NCBI RefSeq assembly: GCF_003999255.1
Contig: NZ_CP034791.1
Coordinates: forward strand, 2,024,501 to 2,088,500
Reading direction: 5' to 3'
Source: Caldicellulosiruptor changbaiensis
GTDB lineage: Bacteria; Bacillota; Thermoanaerobacteria; Caldicellulosiruptorales; Caldicellulosiruptoraceae
DNA: 64,000 nt
Shown in pieces: positions 24,274 through 34,640 of the stretch (its first letter is position 1; every line of letters starts with the position of its first letter). The translations under genes were made by a program, and so were the position numbers. The notes below the pieces were generated by a model, which saw only the letters and a program-made list of their open reading frames with translations, had not been told where the DNA came from and did not search any database.

Positions 24274-24388
24274 AAAACTTTACCCTCTTTAAAATTAAGA
24301 TAATATCTTATATAATTATAACAAATTGCAAAGCAGTTTAAAATCTAAATAAGGAAAAATAGTTTTGAAAAAAGGAGGAAAGTTTAAA

Positions 24389-24883
24389 ATGGCATTTACA
24401 TTTGCAGTGATAACATGCTCAGACAAGGGCTCAAAAGGAGAAAGAGAAGACCTGAGCGGAAAAGAGATAATAAATCTCTTACAAGCTCATGGATTTTCAA
24501 ATGTGTATTACAAGATTGTACCTGATGAAAAAGAAAAAATAAAACAGGCTTTAATTGAAGCAGCAAATGCTGGTGCAAACCTCATTTTGACAACTGGTGG
24601 TACTGGCTTTTATAAAAGAGATGTTACACCTGAGGCAACACTTGAGGTCATACAAAAACAAACCCCTGGTATTTCTGAACTAATCAGGTATGAGACAGGC
24701 AAGATAAATAAAAGGAGCTATCTTTCGCGCGGAGTTTCAGGAATATATGAAAATAGCCTCATAATCAACCTTCCCGGCTCACCAAAGGCAGTAAAAGAGT
24801 GTATTGAGGCAGTGCTGCCGGTTTTAGAGCATGGGCTAAATATCTTGCTTGAAAATGAGAGGGAATGTGGTAAGACAGAGTGA
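24389..24883 (+). CDS. mogA: Molybdopterin adenylyltransferase (MogA/MoaB family)
   Basis: Activates molybdopterin by adenylation before metal insertion by MoeA. The 164-residue protein shows ITCSDKGSKGEREDLSG, TTGGTGFYKRDVTPEAT and INLPGSPKAVKECIEAVLP. The frame reaches back to 24365, but the ATG at 24389 sits directly after AAGGAGG. It is the only cofactor gene here on the plus strand and ends one base before the convergent moaC-MOSC gene. Confidence 0.93.
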   Translation: MAFTFAVITCSDKGSKGEREDLSGKEIINLLQAHGFSNVYYKIVPDEKEKIKQALIEAANAGANLILTTGGTGFYKRDVTPEATLEVIQKQTPGISELIRYETGKINKRSYLSRGVSGIYENSLIINLPGSPKAVKECIEAVLPVLEHGLNILLENERECGKTE

Positions 24884-24884
24884 T

Positions 24885-25808
24885 TTAGCCTAAAATTTCT
24901 ATAATATCTCCTACCCTTATTTTACCACCTTTTAATACTCTTGCAAACAGTCCTTCTTTGGGCATTATACAAACGCCAACCGTCCTTGCTATCTCACATC
25001 CATCCCCATGGCATTTTTTCCCTATCTGGCTTATCTCAAGTATTACATCATCTCCTATCTTTAGCTTTGTACCAAGCTGGATTTTGCTTATATCCAGTCC
25101 TTCTGTTGTAATATTTTCTGCAAACTTGCCAAAACAAAGGCCTTTTATACCATATTCTTTCATCTTTTTTATGCTGGACATATCAAGAAGGCTTACTTGT
25201 CTGTGTGATGTACCTGCATGAGCATCTCCTTCTATGCCAAAATTCTCAATTACATGTGCCTCTTCAACTGGCTCTTTGGATGTCCCCTTTTGCCTGCTTA
25301 TATTTATTGAAATGACCTTTGCAGAGCTTTTTCTTTCATCAAAGATATAATACCCTGACTTTCCACCTATCTTTTCAATTAATCTCACATCTGTAATAAC
25401 CATATCCTTTTTGAGTGCCTTGCACATGTCATAGATTGTCTCTAAAAAAATCAAAACTGCTGTTATTGCCTCCATCTCAGCACCTGTTTGTGCTTGTGTC
25501 TTTACCTCTGATACTGCCTCTATATAACCTTGTTCTTTGTTTACCGAATATGAGATATCGACGTGTGATAGAAATATATTGTGGCAAAGCGGAATCAGTT
25601 CTGATGTCTTTTTTGCTGCCATTATCCCAGCAATCTTTGCTACTGAGAATATATCACCCTTTGGTAACTTGCTTTCTTCTATCGCTTTTATGACCTCGCT
25701 TCCCACATAAATTCTGCCACTTGCCCTTGCAATTCTCTCTGTTATGTCCTTACATGATACATCAACCATCTGCGGCATTCCTTCCCTGTTTAAATGTGTA
25801 AATTCCAT
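24885..25808 (-). CDS. MoaC-MOSC fusion protein
   Basis: Two cofactor domains in one 307-residue chain. Residues 1-160 are MoaC (cyclic pyranopterin monophosphate synthase): VDVSCKDITERIARASGRI, IPLCHNIFLSHVDI, QTGAEMEAITAV and RLIEKIGGKSG. Residues 165-307 are a MOSC domain with DAHAGTSHRQVSLL, GKFAENITTEGLDI and KKCHGDGCEI, the domain that often handles sulfur or metal in cofactor maturation. AGGAGG precedes the ATG. It is the last gene of the tungsten-cofactor run. The MOSC part may help sulfurate or insert metal; that is inference. Confidence 0.93.
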   Translation of the reverse strand: MEFTHLNREGMPQMVDVSCKDITERIARASGRIYVGSEVIKAIEESKLPKGDIFSVAKIAGIMAAKKTSELIPLCHNIFLSHVDISYSVNKEQGYIEAVSEVKTQAQTGAEMEAITAVLIFLETIYDMCKALKKDMVITDVRLIEKIGGKSGYYIFDERKSSAKVISINISRQKGTSKEPVEEAHVIENFGIEGDAHAGTSHRQVSLLDMSSIKKMKEYGIKGLCFGKFAENITTEGLDISKIQLGTKLKIGDDVILEISQIGKKCHGDGCEIARTVGVCIMPKEGLFARVLKGGKIRVGDIIEILG

Positions 25809-26756: not shown

Positions 26757-27920
26757 CTAAATCAATTTAACCTCAAGCAAGTTTCCCTCTTCAATTAAGT
26801 CCACATTAATTGGAACTGTGATATATCCATCTGCTCTCTTTAAACTTGATATCACGCTTGCACCCCTTTTTAAAATTTTGGCTACATTCTTACCATCTAT
26901 ATTTTTAATACTAACTCTCACATACTCTTCAGAGCCTATATCAGATGAGAGTCTTCTCTCAAGTGTGGCAAATATACTTTTTTCTTTTGGATTTAAATTG
27001 TACGCTTTGAAAAATGACTTTAAAAATATCTCCTTTAAAACAAAAAACATTGAAACAGGAAAGCCGGGAAGTCCTATCACAAGCTTATTTTCTACCTTTC
27101 CTATAATTGTTGGCTTGCCGGGTTTTATGGCTATGCCGTGGACAAGTACCTCTCCTAAAGCTGATATAGCTTCGACTGTTAAGTCTTTATCACCCTTAGA
27201 TGATCCAGCATTTACAAAGACTATATCAAATTCTTGTAAAAGTTCTTTTATCTTTTCTGTAAGTTTTTTTAAATTGTTTTCTACAGGCTTTAAAATTCCA
27301 ACTTCGAAACCATATCTTTGAAGTAAATCATTGAATATGACAGAATTGAATTCAACAAGCTGTCCTTCCTTCTCTACTATGTCAACAAGCTCCTCACCTG
27401 TTGGCAAAAAAGCAACCTTTGGCATTTTGTAAACCTTAACTTCAAGATAGCCACCAGCTTTTAAATACACCTTGTCAAAAATGGTTAAAAGATCTCCTTT
27501 TTTAATAAGTAACTGCTCCTTTTGTACATCCTCACCTTTTGAACGTACATTCTGTCGTGGATAGTAACTTTGGAAAATCTTTATCCTTCCATTTTCTATT
27601 TGTGCTTCTTCAAATGGCACAACAGCATCAAAACCCTCAATGCTTTCTCCTGTTTGAACAACTTTAAAGTTTTCAATTATTGCAGGATTTGCATCTGTAG
27701 TATTAAAAGTTTGCTCTGCATTTATTGCATAACCATCCATTGCAGCAACATCTGTAGGAGGCGATGTATTGAGTGAAAGATAGTCTTTTGCTGCAAATTT
27801 ACCTTGTGCTTTGTAAATTGAAATGGTCTCTGTTTTAAGGCTCAAATACTCTTTTAGTATTTTCTCAATTATATCTCTTGCATCTTGTGGGAGTGTAGCT
27901 GAAAAGTGATAATCTTTCAT
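26757..27920 (-). CDS. moeA: MoeA-family metal insertase, paralog 2
   Basis: Inserts Mo or W into adenylated pterin. The 387-residue chain has the MoeA domain order: AMDGYAI near residue 65, then an insert domain, FLPTGEELV near 190, and GIAIKPGKPTIIG with GLPGFPVS near 290. The normally GGxSxGxxD signature reads NAGSSKGDKD, as in a divergent MoeA subgroup often fused to a periplasmic-binding-like domain, which is absent here. It overlaps the preceding moeA by 4 bp. Different metal preference or specialisation is possible but unproven. Confidence 0.92.
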   Translation of the reverse strand: MKDYHFSATLPQDARDIIEKILKEYLSLKTETISIYKAQGKFAAKDYLSLNTSPPTDVAAMDGYAINAEQTFNTTDANPAIIENFKVVQTGESIEGFDAVVPFEEAQIENGRIKIFQSYYPRQNVRSKGEDVQKEQLLIKKGDLLTIFDKVYLKAGGYLEVKVYKMPKVAFLPTGEELVDIVEKEGQLVEFNSVIFNDLLQRYGFEVGILKPVENNLKKLTEKIKELLQEFDIVFVNAGSSKGDKDLTVEAISALGEVLVHGIAIKPGKPTIIGKVENKLVIGLPGFPVSMFFVLKEIFLKSFFKAYNLNPKEKSIFATLERRLSSDIGSEEYVRVSIKNIDGKNVAKILKRGASVISSLKRADGYITVPINVDLIEEGNLLEVKLI

Positions 27921-29131
27921 AGCAGTGTCACCTCAACAATATCACCTGCTTTAATACCCGTTTTTGTGCTATCTACCCTGATATAACCTGATGCATTGTT
28001 CAAAAGATTTATCGAACCGGATTTTCCGTACAGTGGCTCGGCAATAATTTCATCAGAGTATATAAGTTTTACAAATACAAACTCTGTTCTACCACTTGAG
28101 ATTGAAAAGTTTGTCTTCATTTTTGCTAAGACTTTTTTTGACGTATCCTGCTGGTGCAACAAAATGTCAATTAGCCTTTTTACAAAAAATTTAAATATAA
28201 AAAGGCAAGAAACAGGGTGGCCCGGAAGCCCAAATATGGCTTTGTCAAAAACCTTTGCAATTATTGTTGGCTTTCCTGGCTTTATTGAAACTCCATCAAC
28301 AAGAATTTTTGAATTCTCTAAGCTTGAAATAGCTTTCAGTGTGTTATCATATGTACCAACAGAACTTCCGCCAGATACCAGCACAATGTCGTTTTCTAAA
28401 ATGGCTTTTGATAGCATATCTTGCAAAGCATTATAATCATCTTTTACAATCCCATACAATTTAGGAACAGTGTACTCTTCAGTGCAAGAAGCAAAAAGTG
28501 TATATGAGTTTACATCATAAATCTTGGCTCCTTCAAGATTCTGGTCTTGTGAGATTATCTCATCACCTGTTGAAATAATCCCAACTTTTAGCTTTGAGAA
28601 AACCTCAACCTCTTTTTGACCTATTGCTGCCAAAACACCAATTTGAGGCGCTTTTAATTTTTGATACTTTTTAATAACAATACAGCCTTTCTTTATATCC
28701 TCACCCTTTTTAAGTATGTTCTCATTTGGCTTTACTGGCCGAAAGACAAAAAGCTTCCCATCTTCTTCAATGGTATTTTCAAGCATGACCACGGCATTGC
28801 TGCCATCTGGCACATGACCACCTGTAAAAATCCTCGCCGCCTGACCTTCACCAATCTCAAATGTTGGAATCTCCCCTGTCTTTACCTCACCAACCAAATC
28901 AAAGATGGCAGGGTTTTCATCGTTTGCCGAAAATGTCTTCTCACACCTTATTGCATATCCATCAACAGTTGACTTGTCAAAGTGCGGAACATCTATACTT
29001 GATATAATGTCCTTTGCACAAATCCTATCCAAGGCCTCTTGGATGGGGATGGTCTCAGTTTTCAAGCTAACGTTTGAAAATTCCCTTCGCAAAATGTCAA
29101 ACACTTCAAAGTAAGTCATTAAAACCTTCAT
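27917..29131 (-). CDS. moeA: MoeA-family metal insertase, paralog 1
   Basis: A 404-residue MoeA with VDGYAIRCEKTF, FTGGHVPDGSNAVVMLE, ISTGDEI, the canonical-like SGGSSVGTYD signature and GVSIKPGKPTII...GLPGHPVS. Compared with its neighbour it keeps the usual active-site sequence. The AAGGTGAT ribosome site overlaps the tupC stop. Two tandem MoeA genes directly after tungstate uptake genes suggest one may prefer tungstate. Confidence 0.94.
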   Translation of the reverse strand: MKVLMTYFEVFDILRREFSNVSLKTETIPIQEALDRICAKDIISSIDVPHFDKSTVDGYAIRCEKTFSANDENPAIFDLVGEVKTGEIPTFEIGEGQAARIFTGGHVPDGSNAVVMLENTIEEDGKLFVFRPVKPNENILKKGEDIKKGCIVIKKYQKLKAPQIGVLAAIGQKEVEVFSKLKVGIISTGDEIISQDQNLEGAKIYDVNSYTLFASCTEEYTVPKLYGIVKDDYNALQDMLSKAILENDIVLVSGGSSVGTYDNTLKAISSLENSKILVDGVSIKPGKPTIIAKVFDKAIFGLPGHPVSCLFIFKFFVKRLIDILLHQQDTSKKVLAKMKTNFSISSGRTEFVFVKLIYSDEIIAEPLYGKSGSINLLNNASGYIRVDSTKTGIKAGDIVEVTLL

Positions 29132-29137
29132 AGTTAA

Positions 29138-29713
29138 TCACCTTTTCTCTATTATTTGATTATCTTCAAAGTATACCAGCTTTGAGCAAGCCACCATCTG
29201 TGAGTTGTGTGTCACCATAATTATACATCTATTTTGTGCATCTTTTTCTATCTTTTCAAAAATAAAATTTCTTACTGAACTGTCAAGGTACGAATCTGGT
29301 TCATCTAAAAAGAGAACGTCTGACTCAATGTAAAATGCTCTTAAAAAAGCAACAAGCTGTTTTTGCCCAAGTGATAAAGAGTGTATGTTCAGGTTAGGGT
29401 CTATTGAAAATGCTTTCAGTATTTTTATAGCTTCTTTTAAGGGCTGGTCTTTTAAACTCAAAGAGAGGTTATACGCTGCACTTCCTTTGAAAAAATATGG
29501 CTGTTGGGATAGCATAACTTTTTTGTTAAATGTATTCTTAATCATTCCCTTAAAATCACTGTCTTTGCCAAAAAGCATTCTCAAAAATGTTGTTTTCCCG
29601 CACCCATTTGGTCCTCTTATAATATATAAGCCTTTATTATCAAACTTTAAGTTTTTACACCGAAACAAAAGCCTGTCCCCGAAATACTTCTCAACCTCTT
29701 TTACCTCAATCAA
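29138..29713 (-). CDS. tupC: Tungstate ABC transporter ATPase (TupC-like)
   Basis: A 191-residue ABC ATPase, short as usual for the Tup type: Walker A GPNGCGKTT, Q-loop LSQQPYF, signature SLGQKQLVAFLRAF, Walker B VLFLDEPDSYLD and the H-loop MVTHNSQ. It has no C-terminal regulatory domain. It overlaps the permease gene by 8 bp. Specificity for tungstate rests on the TupA-like binding protein and on context. Confidence 0.9.
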   Translation of the reverse strand: MIEVKEVEKYFGDRLLFRCKNLKFDNKGLYIIRGPNGCGKTTFLRMLFGKDSDFKGMIKNTFNKKVMLSQQPYFFKGSAAYNLSLSLKDQPLKEAIKILKAFSIDPNLNIHSLSLGQKQLVAFLRAFYIESDVLFLDEPDSYLDSSVRNFIFEKIEKDAQNRCIIMVTHNSQMVACSKLVYFEDNQIIEKR

Positions 29714-30338
29714 CTATATCACCCTGCAATATCTGCAAAATGGTATTAAATGCAAATGATATAATGAGTAAAACCATACCCAGCAAAAGCGCCATTGAAA
29801 ATTCTCCTTTTGTAATTTCATAGATAATAGCTGTTGTCAAAATACGAGTCTCTCCTTCTATATTCCCACCGACAATCAAAACAGCTCCTACCTCGGAAAT
29901 TGAACGCGAAAGCCCAAGGATGGTTGCATAAACCAGCTCTTTTGAATACTCTTTTATAAGTGCAATGTATCTCTTTTTGCCTTCTACATTTAAGTAGTCT
30001 AAGTTGTCCAAAACTAATTGCACATTTTTAAGGCCTGACAATGTATAGAGTACCACTATTGGCACAATCAAAATTACCTGGGCAATAATCATTGCCCACT
30101 TGGTAAAAAGTATATCTAAAAACCCCAGTGGACCTTTTTTTGAGAGAATAATATATACCAAAAGTCCTGCTAAAACTGGTGGAAGACCAGAGAGAGTATA
30201 TACCAACCTCAACACAAATTTTCGGCCTTTAAACCTTTTTATCTTCAAGAAGTATCCAATTGGAACACCTATTATAATCGAAACAATCGTTGATGGAATA
30301 CAGACAATCAGGGTTGAGACAACAACATTTGCAAGCAT
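29706..30338 (-). CDS. tupB: Tungstate ABC transporter permease (TupB-like)
   Basis: A 210-residue permease with about five membrane helices, including YTLSGLPPVLAGLLVYI and the coupling-loop segment YATILGLSRSISEVGAVLIVGGN (EAA-like). It lies 19 bp after tupA. TupB-type permeases are the closest by size and loop sequence. Confidence 0.9.
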   Translation of the reverse strand: MLANVVVSTLIVCIPSTIVSIIIGVPIGYFLKIKRFKGRKFVLRLVYTLSGLPPVLAGLLVYIILSKKGPLGFLDILFTKWAMIIAQVILIVPIVVLYTLSGLKNVQLVLDNLDYLNVEGKKRYIALIKEYSKELVYATILGLSRSISEVGAVLIVGGNIEGETRILTTAIIYEITKGEFSMALLLGMVLLIISFAFNTILQILQGDIVD

Positions 30339-30357: not shown

Positions 30358-31173
30358 TTATTTTACTGCTCTGTAAACCTCTTTTTTGAAATATTTTTGA
30401 TTAAAAGAATTAACAAGCTTCTTGAACTCATCGCTTTTTAAAAAAGTGTCAAATAGGCTCAAGTCTGGTTTTTTGGGTGAAAAGGCAAAGTAATACGTGT
30501 TTGCTAATATTTCTTCCTTGGGATTTTGATATATAACATCCAGTTTATCAAGTTTGTCTTTCATTTTATAAAATGTTGCCTCATCAGTTAAAATAAAAGC
30601 CTCCTTTTCATTTGCAAGATTTAAACTCATCCCCATCCCCTGACCTGACTTTATATAGCCTTTAAAATTTGGCTTTGTTTTTGCCAGTTTCCAAATCTCA
30701 AGCTCTCTAATATACGTTGCAGAGTTGTCTGCCCGGGATACAAATTTTAAATTTTTATTTTTTATTATCAAAAACGCCGCCTCAATAGATTTTACCTTCT
30801 TGAATAAATCCTTTTTGCTTTTTGGTCCAACAAGTATAAAGTAGTTTGAAACAAAAGGAGTATACCTTTGGATAAGCTTTTGTTTTTTGAGGTCATCCAA
30901 AAAAGATTTTTCATGGATGATTATTCCATCAGCATCCCCATTTTTGAATATCTTCACAGCCTGACCACTGCCAACAGAGATAAAGTCAAGTTTCATATCA
31001 TTCTTTTTTTCAAATTCAGGAACAACAAAACTTAAAAATCCACTGTCATATATACTTGTAGTTGTTGCCATTTTAAATGTTTTAACAGGTTTTGAAAAAG
31101 AATATAATGAAAATGTAAAGATAAAAGTTAAAAGAATAGATACCAAAACAATTTTAACCATAGCCTTTCTCAT
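30358..31173 (-). CDS. tupA: Tungstate-binding protein (TupA-like)
   Basis: Extracellular oxyanion-binding component, 271 residues. After an N-terminal hydrophobic segment (residues 6-26) come ATTTSIYDSGF, VGSGQAVKIFKNGDADGIIIH, SRADNSATYIRELEIW and GQGMGMSLNLA, the pattern of TupA proteins. No lipobox cysteine is visible, although Gram-positive binding proteins are usually lipoproteins; an uncleaved anchor is possible. The GGAG site 9 bases before the ATG supports the start. It is the first gene after the riboswitch. Confidence 0.9.
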   Translation of the reverse strand: MRKAMVKIVLVSILLTFIFTFSLYSFSKPVKTFKMATTTSIYDSGFLSFVVPEFEKKNDMKLDFISVGSGQAVKIFKNGDADGIIIHEKSFLDDLKKQKLIQRYTPFVSNYFILVGPKSKKDLFKKVKSIEAAFLIIKNKNLKFVSRADNSATYIRELEIWKLAKTKPNFKGYIKSGQGMGMSLNLANEKEAFILTDEATFYKMKDKLDKLDVIYQNPKEEILANTYYFAFSPKKPDLSLFDTFLKSDEFKKLVNSFNQKYFKKEVYRAVK

Positions 31174-31220: not shown

Positions 31221-31264
31221 CAAAAAAGGTACTCCCCCGCTTTGAAAAAACCGGAAAGAGTACC
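31221..31264 (-). terminator. Riboswitch expression platform: terminator before tupA
   Basis: On the minus strand GGTACTC (31264-31258) pairs with GAGTACC (31234-31228), followed by TTTTTT. An exclusive alternative pairs CAAAGCGGG of this hairpin (31244-31236) with CCCGCTTTG inside the aptamer (31292-31284), a nine-pair antiterminator. Confidence 0.85.
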
Positions 31265-31387
31265 CTTTTAAATCTTTCCTTTCCAAAGCGGGAGGCGCAG
31301 TGGTTTCCCAAACCTGCACCCTATCGGCCAAAGCACCATGAAGAGGGAAAAACCCTCTTTTTAGGTTGCAATGGCTCGGAAAGATTT
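31265..31387 (-). ncRNA. Moco/tungsten-cofactor riboswitch aptamer
   Basis: This GC-rich leader lies directly after the ThiF-like stop codon and before tupA. A 10-bp closing stem pairs 31378-31387 with 31270-31279. Inside are CCGAGCCATTGCAACC, a 7-bp hairpin (31341-31347 with 31353-31359), a GGTTT/AAACC hairpin and GCGCCTCCCG, all features I recognise from the Moco RNA motif. It is followed by a terminator/antiterminator pair. Ligand binding should hold the CCCGCTTTG strand and so favour termination of tupABC-moeA-moeA-moaA-moaC. Whether it prefers the Mo or W cofactor cannot be read. Confidence 0.85.
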
Positions 31388-32068
31388 TCAAAATTCAAAA
31401 GTTCTATATTCATTTGTCAAAAGGTTTACAAATAAACATTTGCCTATAAGTGGTTCTCCCTGCTTTGAGACCAGTTTACAAAACTCAGAAAGCTCTAACG
31501 CTGCTGTCAACATTGGTGCAAAAATTGGGTTGCCAAGGTCTTTTTCAGCACCCTCAACATTTGCCTCTCCCAAAAGTTTTTCTATCCCAGGTTTGTCTTT
31601 TGTGATGATGGCAATCTGTGCATACCAGCCAGCACACCCACCGTGGATTAAAATCTTGCCTGTCTGTTGTACAAACTTAGATAAACTTTTTCTTATCTCC
31701 ATGTTGTCTGTTGCATCAAATATATAATCTGCCTCAAGCAAAAAAATTTCAAGGTTGTCTAAGTATGCTTTTTCTTTTATAGGCTCTAAGTACACGTTTG
31801 GATTTATCTCTTTTACTCTCTTTTCAGCTTCAAAGACCTTGTATTTGCCTAAGTTGTTAATATTTGAGAGTATCTGCCTGTTGAGGTTTGTTTCATCAAA
31901 TGTGTCCATGTCAACTGCTATAATCTTCTTCACTCCAAGCCTTGCCAAACCCTCAATCAAAAATCCGCCTATGCCACCGACACCAACAACAGCAACAGTT
32001 GTTGCAAGAAGCTTCTTTTGTCCTTCTTCAGTTAAGGCACCAATATTTTTTAAAAATCTTTTTTGCAT
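31388..32068 (-). CDS. ThiF/MoeB/HesA-family E1-like adenylyltransferase
   Basis: Activates the C-terminal GG of a small sulfur carrier by adenylation. The 226-residue protein has the nucleotide-binding VVGVGGIGGF loop, AVDMDTFDETNLNRQIL and IFDATDNMEIR. The CxxC zinc pairs of larger MoeB proteins are absent, so it is a short HesA-like version. It lies 6 bp after the MoaD/ThiS-like gene, its likely partner. Confidence 0.9.
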   Translation of the reverse strand: MQKRFLKNIGALTEEGQKKLLATTVAVVGVGGIGGFLIEGLARLGVKKIIAVDMDTFDETNLNRQILSNINNLGKYKVFEAEKRVKEINPNVYLEPIKEKAYLDNLEIFLLEADYIFDATDNMEIRKSLSKFVQQTGKILIHGGCAGWYAQIAIITKDKPGIEKLLGEANVEGAEKDLGNPIFAPMLTAALELSEFCKLVSKQGEPLIGKCLFVNLLTNEYRTFEF

Positions 32069-32074
32069 AAAACC

Positions 32075-32305
32075 TTATCCTCCAGTTGCAAATGGAGTGA
32101 TATACACACTATCATTGTCTGAAAAAATATAAGTATTGTCAACTTTTTTTTGGTTTACAATAACAAATCCAACTTTGTCGGCTGGAATATTAAGCTTCTG
32201 AAGAAGGGTTAAAACATCCATGTTCTCTTCTATCTCAAGCTCAAACTTGCCAACTCTGCTACCATATCTTCTGAAAAAATCATTTACCTCTACTCCAATT
32301 TTCAT
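32075..32305 (-). CDS. MoaD/ThiS-like sulfur carrier
   Basis: A 76-residue beta-grasp protein ending in the required Gly-Gly (TPFATGG). A carrier of this kind brings sulfur for the dithiolene of the pterin cofactor. The start overlaps the AOR 3' end by 26 bp, and its partner E1 follows at once. MoaD is favoured over ThiS because of the surrounding tungsten-cofactor genes. Confidence 0.9.
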   Translation of the reverse strand: MKIGVEVNDFFRRYGSRVGKFELEIEENMDVLTLLQKLNIPADKVGFVIVNQKKVDNTYIFSDNDSVYITPFATGG

Positions 32306-34049
32306 ATTCTCTTTCCACCCTCTCTATATACATCTTTAAAAGTCTGTTCAGTCTTTCCTCGTCCATCTTGCCCCAAAGAGTTGGCGTTTCAAAAATTCTC
32401 TTTGGAAATTTGTAATTTTCAAGTGAATAGCCAAGTTCCTTTTTAATCTTTAGTTTCGTAAAAAAGATGTCATTGCCAAGGCGGGTCAGGTCTTCATCTG
32501 TCCAGTTGATACCTATTGAATTCAAGGCTTTTAAGATTGTTGTCCTGTCATATACTTTTCTTGCAAAAAGGCAGATGCAAAGCGATGTCAAAATAGCTCT
32601 TTCTTTTTCCTCGTTTATTACATACTCTATTATGTCCTCATCCTTTAGTTCTTTTGCACTCTGGTCATATGCATACCCTGCATTATCTAAGTGCGAATGC
32701 CTTGCACCAACAGTCTGACCAAGAGCAAACGCATAGCCTGTGTGATATCCTGCCATCTCATTGCCACCATACAAAAGTGCAAACTCTTCTCCACCGTATT
32801 TTTTCACAGCTTCTTTCAAACCTTTGCCAATTGTGTAGTAAAACTCGTTGCTTCTATCTGCAATATTATCAATTGCTTTAACATACTCCATGGTGTTGCC
32901 AAACTCAAGGTCTGCAAGAGTGTCTTCTCTTGTAATAAGACCTTTTTTGAGTGCCTCTGTTGCCCATGCCAAAACAACACCGGTTGAAATTGCATCAAGC
33001 CCTGCAAGTTCAACCTCTTCTATAATCTGCAAAACCTCATCTGTTGTCTTTATTCCAAGAAGGCTCCCCAAAGCGTAAATTAGCTCATGGTCGTATGATA
33101 CTGCTATTGACTCATACTCATACCCTTTGTCAAATTCGCGCCTGAACTGGCCTATATGAATACATCCAATTGGACAGCCAACACATGAAACCTTTCTTAT
33201 TAGATTCTTTTCTGCAAAAGTCTCACCAGATATGTCATCTGCATGTTCAAAATTGGACTGCAAAAGGTTCTTTGTTGGCAGGGAATTTATAGCATTTAAA
33301 ACCTTGATGTTCATTGGAGTTCCAAGCTCATGGTATTTTGCCATGGCGTCTGTTTGTGTAACCTTTTTGTAAATCTCTTGATACGTTTTAAAATACTCTT
33401 TCAGATTACCAATTGGCAGGTCTTCCTCGCCCATTATCATCATTGCTTTTAAATTCTTACTTCCAAAGACTGCTCCAATTCCAAGTCTTCCAAAATGTCT
33501 ATAAGTATCTACATTTACACACGAATATGTCACAAGATTTTCTCCTGCTTTCCCAATTCTTATGATACTTCTTTTACCAGGGCCTGGCTCTCTTTCTCTT
33601 ATCAGTCTTCCGACCTCTTCAACATCAAGCCCCCACATAGCTCGTGCATCTTTGAACTCTATAGACTTGTCTGTTATCACAAGATAAGTTGGTTTTTGAG
33701 CTTTTCCAGTTATAACAATTGCATCGTAGCCTGCATTTCTGATTGCCATGGCAAGTCTTCCACCTGCATGGCTCTCACCATACTCACCTGTATGAGGTGA
33801 GATAAACGTCGCAACAGCTTTTGTCACAACAGGAAATATTGTTGAAAGCGGGCCAATTGAGATAATAAGTGGTTGCTGCTGATCAAGTGGCGGAAGGTCT
33901 TTTTTCATGTTCTCTTCAAGTAGCTTTGCAGCAACTCCGACTCCACCTAAGTATTTATACAAGTCCTTTCTTTCTTGTATATCTGCTTTTTTGTTTGTAA
34001 GGTCTATATATAGAACCCTTATAAAATCTGTCCCAATCATTTTACTCAC
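32280..34049 (-). CDS. aor: Tungsten-containing aldehyde:ferredoxin oxidoreductase family enzyme
   Basis: A 589-residue AOR-family oxidoreductase that binds a tungsto-bispterin cofactor and one [4Fe-4S] cluster. The N-terminal pterin-binding part includes LGGVGVAAKLLEENM, SIGPLSTIFP and ESHAGGRLAMAIRNAGYD; cluster cysteines lie in CVGCPIGC (near residue 288) and CICLFARKVYD (near 500). The substrate is uncertain: aldehydes or, as reported for the related Caldicellulosiruptor XOR enzyme, an unknown compound. It overlaps the ferredoxin gene by 8 bp, which fits electron transfer to that partner. Confidence 0.95.
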   Translation of the reverse strand: MSKMIGTDFIRVLYIDLTNKKADIQERKDLYKYLGGVGVAAKLLEENMKKDLPPLDQQQPLIISIGPLSTIFPVVTKAVATFISPHTGEYGESHAGGRLAMAIRNAGYDAIVITGKAQKPTYLVITDKSIEFKDARAMWGLDVEEVGRLIREREPGPGKRSIIRIGKAGENLVTYSCVNVDTYRHFGRLGIGAVFGSKNLKAMMIMGEEDLPIGNLKEYFKTYQEIYKKVTQTDAMAKYHELGTPMNIKVLNAINSLPTKNLLQSNFEHADDISGETFAEKNLIRKVSCVGCPIGCIHIGQFRREFDKGYEYESIAVSYDHELIYALGSLLGIKTTDEVLQIIEEVELAGLDAISTGVVLAWATEALKKGLITREDTLADLEFGNTMEYVKAIDNIADRSNEFYYTIGKGLKEAVKKYGGEEFALLYGGNEMAGYHTGYAFALGQTVGARHSHLDNAGYAYDQSAKELKDEDIIEYVINEEKERAILTSLCICLFARKVYDRTTILKALNSIGINWTDEDLTRLGNDIFFTKLKIKKELGYSLENYKFPKRIFETPTLWGKMDEERLNRLLKMYIERVEREYENWSRGK

Positions 34050-34452
34050 TCACCTCTTCCATGCTCAAGCAGTTATGAGGACACATTCTAACACATGCTC
34101 CACAATGCTTGCAAACTATAGGAATTTTCCTATCGTAGTCCATGTGAATAGAACCTACAATACAAGCCGAAACACATTTTTCACAGGCAATGCACTTTTC
34201 TTCTATTAGCCTTACGCCTCCACCCGGACGCTTCACAAGCGCATTTGTTGGACAAGCCTCTGCACAGGCAGGTTCTTTGCAAGCAACACATACTGTTGCT
34301 GCAAACTTGCTCTGAAGTCCTCCTCTTGTTTTTACTTTTATAGAGCTTTTTGCTAAGTTATGATTGTTATGATTCACAGCTGCACATGTAAGCATACATG
34401 TAAAACATCCAAGGCACTTGTTCATATTGTCAGCCCGAAGAGCCTTTAGCAA
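34042..34452 (-). CDS. Polyferredoxin partner of the AOR-family enzyme
   Basis: A 136-residue iron-sulfur protein with enough cysteines for four [4Fe-4S] clusters: CLGCFTCMLTC, CVACKEPACAEACP, CIACEKCVSAC and CKHCGACVRMCP. This is the HycB/CooF-like electron-transfer type. It probably takes electrons from the oxidoreductase. It is the first gene of the tungsten run; its promoter should lie in 34453-34600, but no convincing -35/-10 pair was found there on the minus strand. Confidence 0.93.
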   Translation of the reverse strand: MLKALRADNMNKCLGCFTCMLTCAAVNHNNHNLAKSSIKVKTRGGLQSKFAATVCVACKEPACAEACPTNALVKRPGGGVRLIEEKCIACEKCVSACIVGSIHMDYDRKIPIVCKHCGACVRMCPHNCLSMEEVSE

Positions 34453-34640
34453 TTAAATCACCACCTATTAACGAATTGATTAATTATAACAATATTTACT
34501 CCCAAATAGGCAGTATATAACTATTTATACCCACACGGACTCTAAACTAAACAGTTCAGCTTGTATTTGTTTATTTTTTAACAATCTTATTATACCACTT
34601 GATATGAAAGTTTACAATATGTCTTCTTGCAATTTAAAAT

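Follow-up and report, generated by a model that had tools for sequence, protein, structure and literature searches.

A P3-less Moco-family riboswitch between the enzyme and supply genes of a probable tungsten operon in Caldicellulosiruptor changbaiensis

Genes at the Locus

The window, by which we mean the whole 64,000-nucleotide stretch of the Caldicellulosiruptor changbaiensis genome that was analysed, carries a long series of genes on its minus strand, with a small regulatory RNA in their midst. In the direction of transcription, the series starts with a ferredoxin-like gene, followed by an enzyme of the aldehyde ferredoxin oxidoreductase (AOR) family, a MoaD/ThiS-like gene and an E1-like gene; then comes the riboswitch, and behind it tupA, tupB, tupC, two moeA genes, moaA and a moaC fused to a MOSC domain (Table 1). 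The AOR-family enzyme is present as a single copy per genome in the genus, and its counterpart in C. bescii is a tungsten GAP oxidoreductase (PMC13328260).

An earlier note on this DNA had placed the riboswitch between the E1 gene and tupA, where it would split the enzyme genes from the supply genes. The position is borne out, as stem P1 of the RNA follows directly on the E1 stop codon. The proposed split holds for the uptake genes and most of the synthesis genes, which are downstream, but not for the MoaD-like and E1 genes, which are found on the enzyme side; the division is therefore not purely one of enzyme versus supply.

Some other features of these genes deserve a mention. The two moeA genes (29131-26757) are adjacent, diverged and overlap by 4 nt, and the presence of two MoeA copies has been taken as a sign that both tungsten and molybdenum cofactors are used (PMC13328260). 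A MoaB/MogA-like gene on the plus strand (24365-24883) converges on moaC, with 1 nt between both stop codons. MoaE (PF02391), the large subunit of MPT synthase, was not found in any of the 12 genomes of the genus, with controls positive in 11 of 14. The genus nevertheless makes a pterin enzyme, and the moaC of the operon carries the MOSC fusion.

Table 1. Features of the locus, listed in the direction of transcription (coordinates of the window)
Feature	Coordinates	Strand	Evidence
Promoter-like TTGTAA-17-TATAAT, TG before −10	34589..34617	-	12/12 genus genomes; −10 also in sister genus
Rex operator-like palindrome TTGTTAAAAAATAAACAA, just after −10	34567..34584	-	position kept in 12/12 genus genomes
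4Fe-4S ferredoxin-like subunit (WorS/GorS-like)	34042..34452	-	Pfam Fer4 matches; order conserved 13/13
Aldehyde ferredoxin oxidoreductase family, GorL-like tungsten enzyme	32280..34049	-	PF02730 3.5e-66, PF01314 9.4e-61
MoaD/ThiS-like sulfur carrier (WorX-like), ends GG	32075..32305	-	PF02597 9.6e-06; translation
E1-like ThiF/MoeB adenylyltransferase	31388..32068	-	PF00899 5.2e-44; stop TGA 31390-31388
Moco/W riboswitch aptamer, P3 absent	31260..31393	-	RF01055 70.4 bits; covarying P1, P2, P4 pairs in 13 genomes
Antiterminator 5′ half (predicted)	31273..31294	-	overlaps P5 and P1 3′ strand; pairs with 31259-31234, 22 pairs, −29.5 kcal/mol
Antiterminator 3′ half (predicted)	31234..31259	-	fold; pairing kept in 96.7% of cells, 13 genomes
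Intrinsic terminator with T run (predicted)	31222..31269	-	−22.2 kcal/mol, ends TTTTTT; two pairs changed on both sides across genomes
tupA-like tungstate-binding protein, TTTS motif	30358..31173	-	3lr1 best solved relative; NF041772 2.1e-35, under curated cut-off
tupB-like permease	29706..30338	-	NF038017 above cut-off; NF041773 3.9e-36, below cut-off
tupC-like ABC ATPase	29138..29713	-	PF00005; position
moeA paralogue 1	27917..29131	-	PF03453/PF00994/PF03454
moeA paralogue 2	26757..27920	-	PF03453/PF00994/PF03454
moaA	25814..26740	-	TIGR02666 286.6 bits, above cut-off
moaC fused to MOSC domain	24885..25808	-	NF011069 571 bits, above cut-off

A Moco-Family Aptamer without P3

An Rfam scan of the window detected the Moco/W riboswitch family (RF01055) at positions 31393-31260 of the minus strand, with 70.4 bits against a gathering score of 36 (E 5.9e-15) and with all 135 model positions matched. 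This covariance search confirms the Moco-type riboswitch suggested by the earlier note, whose 10-bp closing stem corresponds to the ten pairs of P1 (31387-31378 with 31279-31270). There is one copy in the 64-kb window and one in the whole 2.9 Mb genome. P4 is capped by its GAAA tetraloop (GGGAAACC, 31309-31302), and the tetraloop receptor in the bulge of P2 (CCUAA...AUGG), aligned to the consensus, is invariant in 13 genomes. The P3 hairpin is missing, and only a GAU between P2 and P4 is found in its place.

These 13 genomes, all 12 of the genus together with one from the sister genus, share the gene order, the abutment on the stop codon and the anatomy of the switch, and each of them has a single RF01055 match, always at this locus. 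In each of the 13, 2-4 nt separate the end of the E1 stop codon from TCTTTCC, the core of P1, and in one group of species this codon can itself pair in P1. The aptamer core is invariant across the genus and the sister genus, and RNAalifold revealed that 15 of the 54 predicted pairs have changed on both sides, most of them in P1, P2 and P4, and some in the terminator too. The riboswitch stretch folds at −73.8 kcal/mol (z = −6.0), a value that 0 of 200 shuffles reached. A chance hairpin is ruled out by the covariance score, the shuffles and the conservation, and an antisense or plus-strand element by the direction of both the Rfam match and the genes, which is that of the minus strand. Every sequence test applied places this RNA in the RF01055 family, and its ligand-dependent control is a prediction. 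When our collection was searched with the E1 protein, only one distant locus was obtained.

A Terminator and an Exclusive Antiterminator

The terminator with a T run announced in the earlier note is found at the end of the riboswitch, and the nine-pair antiterminator described there (31236-31244 with 31284-31292) is exact, as part of a larger predicted hairpin of 22 pairs (15 + 7). Terminator and antiterminator are mutually exclusive, and the latter takes up bases of the aptamer, namely P5 and the 3′ strand of P1. Across the 13 genomes, the level at which the antiterminator pairing is kept (Table 1) drops to 24-66% of cells when the strands are slid by 1-3 columns. As the aptamer strand is invariant, the antiterminator hardly varies, and what we see is therefore conserved complementarity and not covariation. 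In the terminator stem, the number of cells changed on both sides exceeds that in each of 500 shuffles; this count is not a probability.

Across the 12 genus genomes, the uninterrupted helix between aptamer and terminator is 13-17 pairs long; upon shuffling of the terminator, none of 300 controls was as long in 11 genomes, and one of 300 in the remaining one. The same control was not significant in the sister genus (15 of 300 shuffles), where the fold shows an eight-pair core. The loop segment UUCAAAGCGG is little needed by the terminator stem, yet it is kept and complementary to the aptamer. Predicted totals at 37 °C are −67.0 kcal/mol for the ON state and −71.6 for the OFF state, energies that ignore the ligand, tertiary contacts and folding kinetics; they are a few kcal/mol apart, as expected of a ligand-tuned switch, and for 11 of the 13 genomes a small advantage in stability is predicted for the terminated state over the read-through state. 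A transcription-terminating platform of this kind, with a terminator and an exclusive antiterminator, appears conserved in the genus from its predicted folds, with weaker evidence in the sister genus.

Promoter, Rex and the Origin of the tup Transcripts

A conserved promoter and Rex operator were found only upstream of the ferredoxin-like gene. In the orthologous locus of C. bescii, tungstate transport genes likewise come after enzyme genes that Rex controls (PMC6391272, PMC8579813), and binding of Rex upstream of its gorSL operon has been reported by EMSA (PMC6391272). In a rex deletion strain of this species, the log2 changes were +0.60 to +0.86 for gorSL and +0.38 to +0.77 for tup, values taken here without their significance marks (PMC6391272). 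Published work regards gorSL as a two-gene operon (PMC8579813) and tup as a separate unit, whereas we propose that tup is the downstream part of one operon; the word “riboswitch” is absent from both papers (PMC6391272, PMC8579813).

The E1 coding region was also considered as a place of control. Promoter-like hexamers over its 3′ end differ between genomes (TATAGA/TACAGG), at synonymous sites. In genome G007, which we take to be C. bescii, in part from the agreement between 272 and 274 in what follows, the final part of the E1 coding sequence contains TTGTAAATCTTCTGACAA, at a distance of 272 nt from the downstream ATG of tupA. It matches the second, tup-proximal Rex site predicted in C. bescii about 274 bp before tupA, which was bound weakly in vitro (PMC6391272). 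C. changbaiensis likewise has a Rex operator-like sequence near the end of the E1 coding region, TTGTAAACCTTTTGACAA at 31431-31414, and it is the C. bescii equivalent of this sequence that was predicted as the tup site and bound weakly. A direct action of Rex at tupA was discarded, given the location of the site in the E1 coding end and its weak binding in the published EMSA.

With 2-4 nt between the E1 stop codon and the P1 core, a promoter would not fit between the gene and the aptamer. As no other conserved promoter was found than the one in front of the ferredoxin-like gene, what the switch attenuates is most likely read-through from the enzyme promoter. A single transcript spanning both sides is favoured by the geometry and by the conservation of the promoter, and the rex-mutant data agree with it weakly. 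The simplest account would be that tup transcripts come mainly from polymerases that started at the gor promoter and read through.

Proposed Mechanism and Its Alternatives

The best reading of these data, and one that we consider probable, is a P3-less riboswitch of the Moco family acting as an attenuator of transcription within a tungsten operon whose promoter is under Rex control. Comparative analysis of the sequences provides for it the family membership, the two alternative structures as predicted, their conservation, the loss of P3 and the gene order; that the ligand acts in the OFF direction is what we infer. Transcription would begin ahead of the ferredoxin-like gene, at the promoter under Rex control, and proceed through the enzyme subunits, the MoaD-like carrier and E1; just past the E1 stop codon, RNA polymerase would run into the aptamer. 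With free cofactor bound, probably that of tungsten, P1 and P5 would hold the 31294-31273 strand and the terminator would form, so that the RNA released would be an enzyme mRNA of full length, whose 3′ UTR is the riboswitch. With the cofactor absent, the same strand would make the antiterminator, and the polymerase would read through into the genes for tungstate uptake and cofactor synthesis. Because read-through would occur only without cofactor, supply would be driven by the enzyme's own promoter, and only while the cofactor is short. This layout suggests a design rule, where the enzyme promoter drives cofactor supply and free cofactor stops it, so that supply follows demand.

Alternatively, the tup-moe-moa genes could have a transcript of their own, started from a promoter within the E1 coding sequence, and the same riboswitch would then be a normal 5′ UTR. 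In this genome, a weak TTGTAA-17-TATAGA occurs at the right distance before P1, and the last 15 codons of E1 have a synonymous-site codon identity of 0.78 versus a mean of 0.69 (20 of 213 windows are as high). However, the −10-like hexamer lacks its final T, differs between genomes and is absent in the sister genus, and the rex deletion of C. bescii moved the tup genes together with gorSL, and we find a separate transcript somewhat unlikely. Very improbable, in our opinion, is a terminator-bearing relic in which the aptamer no longer switches and a fixed ratio of enzyme to supply transcripts is set: the predicted preference for the terminated state in most genomes would suit it, but the invariant aptamer core and the covarying stems across both genera do not, nor does the retention of an aptamer-complementary UUCAAAGCGG loop that the terminator can almost do without. 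Since P1 begins at the E1 stop codon, an attenuator of read-through from the enzyme promoter might in addition read translation, as a ribosome finishing E1 would cover the 5′ strand of P1 and favour read-through. We regard this addition as quite doubtful, and general operon compactness explains the spacing between E1 and P1 equally well; if it were true, the supply genes would obey three inputs, namely redox through Rex, ongoing E1 translation and free cofactor.

Tungsten or Molybdenum Cofactor

Moco RNAs without P3 are nearly confined to organisms that carry tungsten genes, a correlation from which they were proposed to be sensors of the tungsten cofactor, or “Tuco” (PMC2408646). In a literature search, no later test of P3-less RNAs sensing the tungsten cofactor was found after this 2008 proposal. 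The riboswitch of C. changbaiensis lacks P3 and has tupA/tupB-like genes next to it, though these fall below the NCBIfam equivalog cut-offs. The TupA-like protein matches the tungstate-binding 3lr1 at 1.4e-39 versus 1.1e-5 for the molybdate-binding 7tav, and the TTTS motif of TupA is present in it. The absence of P3, the TupA matches and the tungsten-dependent enzyme upstream narrow the specificity and would fit tungsten, without amounting to proof.

The value of P3 as a marker was surveyed in 79 motif loci through a crude fold-based call, by which about 46 of the 79 were classifiable. Motifs linked to tup genes lacked P3 in 10 of 11 classified cases; among those linked to mod genes, 7 of 10 lacked it and 3 had it. 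The absence of P3 is not borne out as a clean marker of tungsten, and since mod-linked motifs are often P3-less, it is on its own a weak one. In other genera, modA-like genes too can have a P3-less motif in front of them, which would agree with a riboswitch that responds to the molybdenum cofactor, or to both metal forms, instead of to the tungsten one. Three other traits of this genome would agree with it as well: modA, for molybdate uptake, is part of a nif cluster, one DMSOR-family enzyme has a MobA-like protein encoded next to it, and one more PF00384 protein is present. The high proportion of P3-less motifs among those linked to tup speaks against it, as does the tungsten type of both the upstream enzyme and the downstream transporter, and we deem sensing of molybdenum unlikely. 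The modA gene was recognised from protein starts and gene order, and presumably serves nitrogenase. Two PF00384 enzymes of this genome (L080:5798-8355 and L081:5445-8987), one of them beside a MobA-like gene, are encoded at loci without a Moco riboswitch.

Comparison with Known Systems

The element resembles the P3-less “Tuco” subtype of RF01055 in its full-length match, in its P1, P2, P4-GAAA and P5 architecture, in its intrinsic-terminator platform and in the predicted control of tup, moe and moa genes (PMC2408646). It differs in being inside an operon, directly after the E1 stop codon, and not behind a promoter of its own, and its ligand is a prediction. P3-less RNAs with terminators have also been described in an MPT and transport operon of Syntrophomonas wolfei, with three Moco RNAs in series (PMC2408646), whereas a single element parts the enzyme block from the supply block in C. 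changbaiensis.

The location of the motif within an operon is not unique. At locus L160 (1820-4260) of genome G149, from a different family of the same phylum, the stop codon of a pterin enzyme overlaps the start of the motif, and two moeA genes, an unnamed gene and mobA come next. The logic of enzyme, switch and supply is the same, with a PF00384 (DMSOR-family) enzyme there and one of the AOR family here. At L149 and L051, the motif directly follows the stop codon of mobA and precedes moaA, and at L128 it starts 19 nt after a stop codon, apparently within one operon. These motifs abutting stop codons indicate that internal placement is recurrent, and the RNA reported here is assigned with good support to a known family, its position being unusual but recurring.

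With one riboswitch per genome, and genes for a glycolytic tungsten enzyme and for tungstate transport next to it, the genus offers a clean case for the study of tungsten-cofactor sensing, and for C. bescii, a member of the same genus, a rex mutant and RNA-seq data exist. In another congener (G005, locus L036), about 1.8 kb of inserted DNA, antisense and by eye resembling a transposase gene, sets the terminator apart from tupA while the riboswitch remains intact; this provides a natural test of whether the supply genes need read-through.
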